The notes under the pieces are model-generated. The model saw only the letters and a program-made list of their open reading frames with translations, made no database searches and was not told the DNA's origin. From Desulfobacterales bacterium HSG17 (lineage in GTDB: Bacteria > Desulfobacterota > Desulfobacteria > Desulfobacterales > Desulfococcaceae), in NCBI GenBank assembly GCA_030377945.1, contig JAUCGD010000069.1:1-14832 (forward strand): a stretch of DNA of 14,832 nt, given 5' to 3'. The translations under genes and the position numbers were made by a program. Positions 9,682 to 11,732 of the stretch are shown here, piece by piece (within the stretch, counting starts at the first letter, position 1; the number at the start of each line of letters is the position of its first letter).

Positions 9682-11732
9682 GCAATTCCAATAATATTAT
9701 ACATATAAAAAACCTTGTTACTGCATTTGATACTGAAGCAGGAATAATTCACGCGGTTGATGATGTAAGTTTCTCGGTTCCCAAAGGCAAAACCCTTGGC
9801 ATTGTTGGGGAGTCAGGATGCGGCAAAAGTGTTACAGCCCTTTCCATAATGCGCCTGCTTCCCCGGCCTGCGGGAAATATTTACAGCGGACAGATTCTAT
9901 TTGAAGATACGGATATTACAAATATTTCCCCTGAGCAGATGAGTAAAATCAGGGGAAACCGCATCTCCATGATATTCCAGGAACCAATGACAGCCTTAAA
10001 CCCGGTTCACAGAATCGGCAAGCAGATCTGCGAGGTTTTTCAGCTTCATTTTCCTGAAATGAAGGATTCAAAGATATATGAAAACTCCCTTGAAATGCTC
10101 AAAAAAGTAGGAATCCCAGAACCAGAACAGCGTTTCAAAGAATATCCCCACCAGATTTCAGGAGGAATGCGGCAGCGAGTCATGATTGCCCTGGCCCTGG
10201 CATGTAAACCTGACATACTAATAGCAGACGAACCCACCACAGCCCTGGATGTAACCATCCAGGCACAGATCCTGACATTGATAAAAAAATTACAGCAGGA
10301 AACCGGCATGTCAGTTATCTTTATCACCCATGACCTTGGAGTAATTGCTGAAATCTGCGATCAGGTAGTGGTAATGTACGCAGGGAAAGTGGCAGAAACA
10401 GCAACAGTTGAAATGTTGTTTGAAAATCCAAAACATCCTTATACACAAGGGCTGCTAACATCTATTCCCCGCCTTGAAACCCCGCGAAAATCTACCCTTA
10501 ATATCATCAGAGGAATGGTTCCTGGCCTCCATGAACTAGCTGAAGGATGCAGATTTCAAAACCGCTGCCCCCATGCAAAAGAAATCTGCAAGACTCAGCC
10601 CCCAATGACCCAGATTAAAAAAGATCATTATGCAGCCTGCTTTTTCAGTGACCAGTTATCAGTGAACAGTGAACAGTTAGCAGTTAGCAGTGAACAATTA
10701 TCAGTTAACAGTGAACAGGATGAACCTGAAATATCCAGCCAACCCACTGATAACTGCTCACTGTTAACTGTTAACTGTCTCAAGGTTTATTTCCCGGTTC
10801 GCTCCGGGATTTTTCTCCGCAAGACCGGCAATGTTCATGCAGTTGACAATATTTCATTTAGCATTAAACAAGGCCAAACCCTGGGGCTTGTCGGTGAGTC
10901 AGGGTGCGGAAAAACAACAGTGGGACGTGCCATAATCAGGCTTTACAATCCCACTGAAGGGCAGGTTTTTTTTCAGGAAAAAGATATAGCAGGCATGGAT
11001 AAAAAAGAGCTTCATGCAATGCGGCGTAATGTTCAGATGATTTTTCAGGACCCTTTTGAATCCCTGAACTCGCGGCATACAGTGGGCAATATCCTGGAAG
11101 AACCTTTTCTCATCCATAAAATAGGAACTCCTGAAGAACGCAGGGCAAATGTTAAAAAACTGCTGGAAAAAGTGGGGCTTTCCCAGTCTGCTGCGGACCG
11201 TTTTCCCCATGAATTCAGCGGGGGCCAGCGCCAGCGTATTGGCATAGCAAGAGCCATAGCCTTAAATCCCAGGCTGCTTGTCTGTGATGAACCTGTGTCA
11301 GCTTTGGATGTATCCATTCAATCCCAGATATTAAACCTGCTTCTTGAACTTCAAAAGGATATGGGACTAACATACTTATTCATATCACATGACCTAACAG
11401 TGGTAAAACATGTATCTGACCATATTGCAGTAATGTACCTGGGTAAAATAGTTGAATACACAGATGCGGAAACCATTTACAAAACCCCTCTCCATCCCTA
11501 CACAAAAGCCCTGCTTTCATCAATACCCATTCCTGTTCCCAATGCAAAAACACAAAAACAGATTCTTTCAGGCGATGTGCCATCCCCTATAAATCCCCCC
11601 TCAGGATGCAGATTCCGCACAAGATGCCCTGTTAAGATGGAAATTTGTGCCATTAAAGAGCCAATACTCTCCCCGGCTCCAAAAACAACCGGGGATGAGC
11701 ACCTTGTGGCCTGTCATCTTGTTTTTAGTTAA
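9678..11732 (+). CDS. Double ATP-binding ABC transporter protein, YejF-type (DppD-DppF fusion)
   Basis: Cytoplasmic ATPase subunit with two complete ABC domains in 684 residues. Domain 1: Walker A GESGCGKS (44-51), signature SGGMRQR (161-167), Walker B LIADEP (181-186), H218, then an oligo_HPY tail with C291, C297, C304 and C321. Domain 2: GESGCGKT (406-413), SGGQRQR (514-520), LLVCDEP (533-539), H571, and a second tail with C644, C650, C657 and C679. Both sites look catalytically intact. In the DppD family these C-terminal cysteines can hold an iron-sulfur cluster. The start is TTG at 9678, overlapping the upstream TGA; no ATG is near and no good ribosome binding site is visible, so translation probably depends on coupling. 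The linker (about residues 325-368) is encoded by a palindromic heptamer repeat. No permease partner is in the window. Confidence 0.93.
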   Translation: MSNSNNIIHIKNLVTAFDTEAGIIHAVDDVSFSVPKGKTLGIVGESGCGKSVTALSIMRLLPRPAGNIYSGQILFEDTDITNISPEQMSKIRGNRISMIFQEPMTALNPVHRIGKQICEVFQLHFPEMKDSKIYENSLEMLKKVGIPEPEQRFKEYPHQISGGMRQRVMIALALACKPDILIADEPTTALDVTIQAQILTLIKKLQQETGMSVIFITHDLGVIAEICDQVVVMYAGKVAETATVEMLFENPKHPYTQGLLTSIPRLETPRKSTLNIIRGMVPGLHELAEGCRFQNRCPHAKEICKTQPPMTQIKKDHYAACFFSDQLSVNSEQLAVSSEQLSVNSEQDEPEISSQPTDNCSLLTVNCLKVYFPVRSGIFLRKTGNVHAVDNISFSIKQGQTLGLVGESGCGKTTVGRAIIRLYNPTEGQVFFQEKDIAGMDKKELHAMRRNVQMIFQDPFESLNSRHTVGNILEEPFLIHKIGTPEERRANVKKLLEKVGLSQSAADRFPHEFSGGQRQRIGIARAIALNPRLLVCDEPVSALDVSIQSQILNLLLELQKDMGLTYLFISHDLTVVKHVSDHIAVMYLGKIVEYTDAETIYKTPLHPYTKALLSSIPIPVPNAKTQKQILSGDVPSPINPPSGCRFRTRCPVKMEICAIKEPILSPAPKTTGDEHLVACHLVFS
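10653..10777 (+). repeat. Heptamer-repeat palindrome read in frame inside the double ATPase
   Basis: Left arm 10653-10718: nine consecutive 7-bp units plus CAG, all variants of CAGTKAN (CAGTTAT, CAGTGAA, CAGTTAG, CAATTAT, CAGTTAA). Right arm 10746-10777: the same heptamer inverted, ACTG recurring every 7 bp five times. Right-arm complement pairs with 10674-10705 at 28 of 32 positions around a 40-nt loop. Because 7 is coprime to 3, it encodes a heptad-like QLSVNSE peptide. Similar CAGTTATCAGTGAACAG strings are, from general knowledge, typical intergenic repeats in some bacterial genomes; here it lies in coding sequence. Confidence 0.9.

Follow-up and report, generated by a model that had tools for sequence, protein, structure and literature searches.

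How does a DNA repeat with a seven-base unit come to be read as protein, and what becomes of it afterwards? Heptamer arrays should be rare within genes because heptamers are not multiples of three, and the question is raised by a 14,832-nt stretch of Desulfobacterales bacterium HSG17 (contig JAUCGD010000069.1, positions 1 to 14,832; "the window" denotes this whole stretch). Here the linker of a double ATP-binding cassette (ABC) ATPase contains an array of CAGTKAN-type heptamers, a spacer and an inverted arm, and the heptamers are translated in all three phases as seven-residue repeats; heptamers also recur within proteins of related bacteria. We propose that this linker is probably a translated copy of a heptamer palindrome dispersed in the Desulfonema lineage; in a related clade, where other heptamers hold this junction, the address may have been inherited and the heptamer replaced over time.

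A translated heptamer palindrome between two ATPase domains

The ATPase open reading frame (ORF; Table 1) carries two ABC_tran and two oligo_HPY stretches, which identifies it as a double peptide-importer ATPase, and it runs without any stop, array region included, as an earlier sequence-only reading of the window had stated. That reading counted nine CAGTKAN units and an inverted copy; array and arm were recovered, but the units number ten, the additional one standing at 10646. The unit at 10695 (CAATTAT) departs from the consensus, and the encoded peptide repeats as QLSVNSE/QLAVSSE. Tandem Repeats Finder gave the linker a score of 111 for period 21 and of 69 for period 7, and its lag-7 statistic was reached by none of 300 dinucleotide shuffles (p floor 0.0033). 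Folded as RNA, positions 10640-10785 gave −51.1 kcal/mol (z −6.6, 0/200 shuffles as low); folded as DNA, the same segment gave z −5.35.

The units in phase 0 (10653, 10674 and 10695) have TTA in every case and those in phase 2 (10667, 10688 and 10709) have GAA in every case, a pattern from which a fit between repeat variants and codon phase had been claimed. The pattern itself is correct, but it is weak as evidence because 17% of 20,000 simulated ten-unit left arrays were open in the window frame, and any array within an ORF must be open; we therefore rejected it as proof of domestication. Unit frequencies for the simulation were drawn from 13 loci (54 units) of Desulfonema limicola and D. ishimotonii, the intergenic status of four D. 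ishimotonii loci being unchecked.

In the AlphaFold model of the ATPase (mean pLDDT, predicted local distance difference test, 90.4), the LLTVNC residues encoded by the right arm are predicted to belong to a domain 2 strand, residues 361-376 (block 361-370 has a mean pLDDT of 97). Residues 335-356 have pLDDT below 50 in the model; they cover 13 of the 25 left-array residues, and the array is thus predicted to be disordered in its later half.

Table 1. Positions of the heptamer array, its host gene and the adjoining gene in the window.
Feature	Position	Strand	Description
Left array	10646..10718	+	ten CAGTKAN-type heptamers then CAG; encodes about residues 323-347
Left array units 1-5	10646, 10653, 10660, 10667, 10674	+	CAGTGAC, CAGTTAT, CAGTGAA, CAGTGAA, CAGTTAG
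Left array units 6-10	10681, 10688, 10695, 10702, 10709	+	CAGTTAG, CAGTGAA, CAATTAT, CAGTTAA, CAGTGAA
Spacer (hairpin loop)	10719..10745	+	27 nt, residues about 348-356; matches D. limicola linker
Right inverted arm	10746..10778	+	encodes TDNCSLLTVNC; arms 88% complementary
LLTVNC codons	10761..10778	+	residues 362-367, predicted part of first strand of ATPase domain 2
Interdomain linker	10572..10778	+	207 nt, after GCRFQNRCP, ending before LKVYFPV
Double ABC ATPase ORF	9678..11732	+	OppD-type then OppF-type half; TTG start, 684 amino acids
Extracellular solute-binding protein gene	7855..9681	+	putative; overlaps ATPase start

The nearest ATPase belongs to D. limicola (82-83% identity). Its linker keeps the blocks TTATCA, AAC, GAACAG and GATAAC, the remainder being mostly changed or gapped relative to the window, and of the 33 codons aligned over residues 322-361, 20 specify another residue. 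LLTVNC is the same in both organisms, with five of its six codons differing and every change synonymous; among the 317 codons of the second ATPase domain, 93 carry synonymous differences and 42 change the residue. Together with the model, this supports the claim of the sequence-only reading that the right arm encodes the start of domain 2. The D. limicola linker showed no significant period 7 (lag-7 shuffle test, p 0.076) and its fold is not unusual (z −1.15). On this alignment, it is an eroded relative of the window linker, in which the DNA repeat appears to have decayed in one lineage and the peptide LLTVNC to have been kept. Because an eroded version is found in D. limicola, the window array is apparently not recent in its lineage, and would predate the split between the two. 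One reading of the LLTVNC codon pattern is drift away from a repeat; another is that native codons were rewritten into repeat under protein constraint.

Copies of the repeat were counted in the genomes of relatives of the window organism. The pattern CAGTKADCAGTKADCAGT had 15 matches at nine places in D. limicola and 48 matches in D. ishimotonii, and was present in seven of eight genomes searched, with a reversed control at zero apart from two matches in HSG8. All nine CAGTKAN places in D. limicola are at gene boundaries, seven overlapping no ORF and two overlapping an ORF 3' end (ORFs were called mechanically, at least 90 amino acids here and at least 100 in the array survey below). The earlier reading had proposed an alignment of orthologues, and had named a linker uniform among relatives, with no other copies of the repeat, as the outcome that would speak against it; instead, the linkers differ between relatives and D. 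limicola has its gene-boundary copies.

A shared mobile spacer was considered and not relied on: six of the nine D. limicola loops were compared with the window loop and four gave no match, the loop of L175 matching over 11 nt (p 0.002) and that of L176 at p 0.028. A plasmid or phage origin was rejected as well; a 151-bp query matched nine plasmid records (eight cyanobacterial, one Pseudomonas) and two phage records (one infecting a cyanobacterium) over at most 51% of its length, which we read as the same heptamer type. Separately, a four-unit CAGTNNN pattern gave 679 + 707 matches in HSG8 (G002, ~6 Mb), against 92 + 163 for its reversed control, and D. magnum has a 216-nt period-7 array (L001:5334-5549) with a run of exact CAGTTAT/TAACTGA, ~4.5 kb upstream of its solute-binding gene.

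One junction, different heptamers

We compared 35 domain junctions at the DNA level, each with both halves present and no more than 500 nt between them (duplicates and incomplete loci were excluded, as were longer gaps). The lag-7 statistic lay beyond all 300 shuffles in eight, with L021 and L035 reaching nominal 0.05 only; one of the eight, a paralogous junction in G005 (L057), was left out. Where the 207-nt linker of the window has its CAGTKAN array, D. magnum has CTCGAAA / TTTCAAG, HSG8 CCGATTT, HSG2 CGGTTGA / AACCGTC, G006 GGCAAGC / CCATCGC, G005 GTTTTAA / AAAACCT, and G003 CCCCGGT with a weaker CGGTGTT on the left side. Three relatives available as protein only (P0005, P0006 and P0008) also look repeat-bearing and were not counted.

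The array-bearing fused linkers measure 207, 183, 162, 396, 180 and 219 nt, the 396 being that of HSG2, and nine array-free fused linkers (L008, L013, L021, L062, L063, L068, L069, L070 and L072) measure 180-216 nt; L021, listed here as lacking a strong array, has a nominal p of 0.013. Since the former are hardly longer than the latter, HSG2 excepted, the lengths fit a replacement of native sequence, and this part of the sequence-only reading held up.

In a tree of 36 rows, D. magnum, HSG8, HSG2, G006 and G005 form one clade (support 99/98) with arrays at the junction in 5/5; these five are every genome of the family in the data set used. The array label required three changes on this tree, against a mean of 6.5 when shuffled (1/500 shuffles as low). 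The five clade heptamers have a mean distance of 2.7/7 against 3.21 for random heptamers (5% of random and 0.8% of letter-shuffled sets as low), and choosing different representatives for these arrays gives a mean of 3.0 (26% of random sets as low); for all seven junction heptamers it is 3.05. The nearest pair in the clade, D. magnum and G005, is one letter apart. The clade's junction heptamers are thus little more alike than random. Because every clade genome seen has an array at the junction and the heptamers differ, we infer that occupancy was inherited while the heptamer was replaced, in which case the clade's arrays would share ancestry.

The ATPase halves are separate genes in many relatives. 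In G005 (L058/L060/L170) an array with stops divides the halves into two ORFs, within a clade of fused genes; since G005 branches from within the fused members, this split is probably derived.

These observations suggest the following course. A dispersed element, with its left CAGTKAN array, spacer and inverted right array, would sit where the two ATPase halves join. Its left arm may survive as a loose tether of near-neutral role, and its right arm would happen to encode residues usable as the first strand of domain 2, now conserved as protein. Turnover of the heptamer might proceed by local slippage, template switching or conversion from other arrays of the genome. The domestication put forward by the sequence-only reading would then hold largely for the right arm and fairly well for the left, taken as a tether that is tolerated. 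More is involved than a single domesticated copy, because other heptamers stand at the same junction and in-frame arrays occur in other D. magnum proteins. The same address with a different heptamer, in a fused or a split gene, forms a natural series for the origin and spread of a repeat and its conversion to protein.

Period-7 arrays were also surveyed across genomes. Stretches of 400 kb contained 51 in D. magnum, 15 in G015 and 4 in D. limicola, and stretches of 200 kb contained 44 in HSG8 and 49 in HSG2; the remaining periods between 5 and 11 gave 0-4 arrays per genome (0-3 in D. magnum), save period 6 in HSG2 (24). After merging, array sites lay within ORFs at 8/37 in D. magnum, 4/25 in HSG8, 9/28 in HSG2, 0/12 in G015 and 0/4 in D. 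limicola. An exact inverted 10-mer was present at most 100 nt from 10/51, 9/44, 8/49, 6/15 and 0/4 arrays in the same order of genomes, a minority, so that many arrays are not palindromic by that measure. In-frame arrays of D. magnum occur in an FG-GAP/papain protein, an alpha-2-macroglobulin, an HdrA-like protein (a label of ours, based on the Pyr_redox and Fer4 domains it contains) and a hybrid kinase, identified as such from its sequence. The kinase ORF (L145:2-7018; 2339 residues, truncated where its stretch begins) has several in-frame heptamer arrays, one right arm leading into a putative receiver-domain start (ISTLLVEDND), which resembles the ATPase case. In HSG2, a minus-strand ORF of 1406 amino acids (L005:12335-16552) holds several differing period-7 stretches, and another ORF (L210:11355-12857) has heptamer arrays, two of them identical and 286 nt apart (11671 and 11957).

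Proposed inheritance of addresses and competing explanations

Within the D. magnum clade we compared nine addresses, each time without the genome that had led to the discovery. Orthologous sites were occupied in 12 of 22 cases, against 71 of 527 background junctions (D. magnum 27/271, HSG8 26/118, HSG2 18/138), a nominal P of 6 × 10⁻⁶ at the background rate of 0.135 and 9 × 10⁻⁴ at the HSG8 rate of 0.22. Flanks of 300-600 nt were searched at the addresses, and gaps of up to 1 kb in the background. The HSG8 and HSG2 backgrounds came from contigs with already-known numbers; the background is if anything raised, because C32, C51 and C172 (HSG8) and C207 (HSG2) had come up in the pattern search. 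Two G005 sites stand outside the 22, the NadD junction (partly N-masked) and the site upstream of the 548-amino-acid gene (contig end).

By the detector, the ABC junction was occupied in 5/5 genomes and the alpha-2-macroglobulin site in 1/1. The latter is the clearest second case of one address with unlike heptamers: between the same flanking residues, D. magnum has CTGGAAA/TTTCAAG and HSG2 has GGTCCGT/ACAACGG palindromic arrays, which add residues, in contrast to the ATPase linker. No array was detected at this site in D. limicola, D. ishimotonii or G003. At two addresses, then, position seems steadier than sequence, and that an address may outlast its heptamer is a less expected and stronger point than domestication. 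We offer this tentatively, with somewhat less than even confidence, as a general rule: what is inherited is the address, with a junction or linker staying occupied for long and its heptamer being rewritten, perhaps toward the resident heptamers of the genome. If it is true, rewriting within a gene can alter a linker peptide, supply a structural strand or, through stops, break a fused gene in two, of which G005 seems to be an example.

Several observations weigh against inheritance of addresses. The remaining seven were occupied unevenly: downstream of the 470-amino-acid gene in 2/4 (empty in HSG8 and G005), the NadD junction in 1/3 (empty in HSG8 and G006), the L132 junction in 0/1 (empty in HSG2), the HdrA-like protein in 0/1 (empty in G006), upstream of the 466-amino-acid gene in 2/4 (empty in D. 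magnum and G005), and upstream and downstream of the 548-amino-acid gene in 0/1 and 1/2 (each empty in G006). At the 466-amino-acid junction, array-free D. magnum seems by eye to retain the same upstream gene. Without the ABC site, occupancy is 7/17, with P 0.005 at 0.135 and 0.06 at 0.22; the trials are non-independent, the addresses were hand-chosen, and at most of them the second flanking gene is unchecked. The clade's arrays were compared by heptamer alone, and that the six fused linkers are open follows from their construction. The detector recognises only the right array in HSG8 and G003, where a palindrome is therefore not shown. Foldback, marginal in D. magnum (z −2.05), is absent in HSG8, G006 and G003, and a mechanism driven by hairpins therefore does not fit every junction. 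At the 470-amino-acid junction, where the detector scored HSG8 and G005 as empty and, once HSG2 is included, 3 of 5 genomes as occupied, HSG8 has by eye an inverted array of two alternating heptamers. An array 366-519 nt beyond the gene in HSG8 was not counted.

The main rival is independent acquisition of an array in each lineage, the interdomain linker being merely one of the few spots that tolerate in-frame heptamers. The near-random distances between the clade heptamers (2.7 or 3.0 against 3.21), the three changes of the array label, the abundance of arrays in D. magnum, HSG8 and HSG2 and the frequent emptiness of the other addresses all suit it. However, occupancy of 5/5 in one clade would have a probability of 4.5 × 10⁻⁵ at 0.135 and 5 × 10⁻⁴ at 0.22, the alpha-2-macroglobulin arrays of D. 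magnum and HSG2 share their flanking residues, and D. limicola has an eroded homologue of the window array; we consider independent acquisition unlikely, while taking it seriously.

An mRNA hairpin kept because it is useful, as a ribosome pause between the domains or for message stability of the split genes, would account for the strong foldback in three of the seven array junctions (window z −5.9, or −6.6 in the fold given above; HSG2 −13.0; G005 −7.2) and for the placing of D. limicola elements at gene junctions. It sits poorly with the lack of foldback in three of the seven, with nine fused orthologues that have no strong array and with the now ordinary fold of the D. limicola linker, and we regard it as improbable. 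An ordinary low-complexity protein linker, its heptamers due to chance or codon bias, agrees with the variability of linkers across 67 aligned proteins of the family and was rejected as already contradicted, given a periodicity that no shuffle reached, the dominance of period 7 in D. magnum and the same heptamer type lying between genes in D. limicola.

Known repeats and the surrounding genes

Comparisons with described systems rest on extracts of the cited papers. TAACTGA heptamer direct repeats occur in Beggiatoaceae, cyanobacteria and Bacteroidetes, mostly at gene boundaries, with a few in ORFs in the stop-free orientation (MacGregor 2015, PMC4679880). They have a heptamer core in common with the window (CAGTTAT/TAACTGA), and their gene-boundary placement matches 9/9 D. 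limicola sites; the window differs in its degenerate units, its inverted arm and the position of both arms in frame between two domains. The window array contains no exact adjacent TAACTGA/TCAGTTA pair, where membership would call for at least two such units; exact tandem CAGTTAT is present in other genomes of the order. Rickettsia palindromic elements form sequence families of ~150 bp whose peptide is conserved, and they are inserted in frame into proteins that are unrelated (PMC10969869). The window element, likened to them by description, is likewise palindromic and in frame in a conserved gene; in contrast, its array has 7-bp units and a sequence that varies between related genomes. Element-free orthologues, as expected of a Rickettsia-type insertion, are present as the nine array-free fused genes; from their similar length, the element seems to replace rather than add. 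We regard the arrays as a variant of these known kinds, TAACTGA heptamers and Rickettsia coding palindromes.

Borg tandem repeats make disordered regions and change rapidly, and at one conserved region, a hotspot, most genomes carry repeats of their own (PMC9879509). In the extract, all Borg repeats within ORFs have units divisible by three, head-to-tail, whereas the window has a 7-bp unit plus a palindromic arm. In the coding palindromes of Nematomorpha mitochondria, both arms encode protein and are thought to be actively matched, perhaps by template switching; they are long, perfect and placed in conserved mitochondrial gene regions, and the extract mentions no heptamer unit (PMC6649704). 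Geobacter metallireducens has GGGACCG heptanucleotide elements between and within genes at 49 places, one family of four tandem repeats in one genome; unlike in the window, no inverted arm is mentioned in the extract (PMC2700814). Among the results listed by searches of open-licence PubMed Central papers, none described these heptamer arrays in Desulfonema, and by word count "heptamer" is absent from the D. ishimotonii genome paper (PMC6390638) and from PMC11887813.

Solved relatives of the window ATPase are Rv1281c (E 1e-157), DppD, OppD/OppF and DppD/DppF. Its D. limicola orthologue carries the name GsiA-like, and we take the window protein to be GsiA/YejF-like. The adjoining gene, which served as the query for finding relatives, presumably encodes an extracellular solute-binding protein, going by its family resemblance and by its position beside the ATPase. 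No permease-like ORF was seen by eye between or beside this pair (window 7855-11732). D. limicola conserves the order of six window genes up to the ATPase. Elsewhere in the window, two 12-bp tandem repeats lie within ORFs (882-924 and 14109-14146), their unit being divisible by three, unlike the heptamers, and an intergenic inverted repeat is found at 12490-12565, around GTAGGGTGCGTTAG ... CTAACGCACCCTAC.
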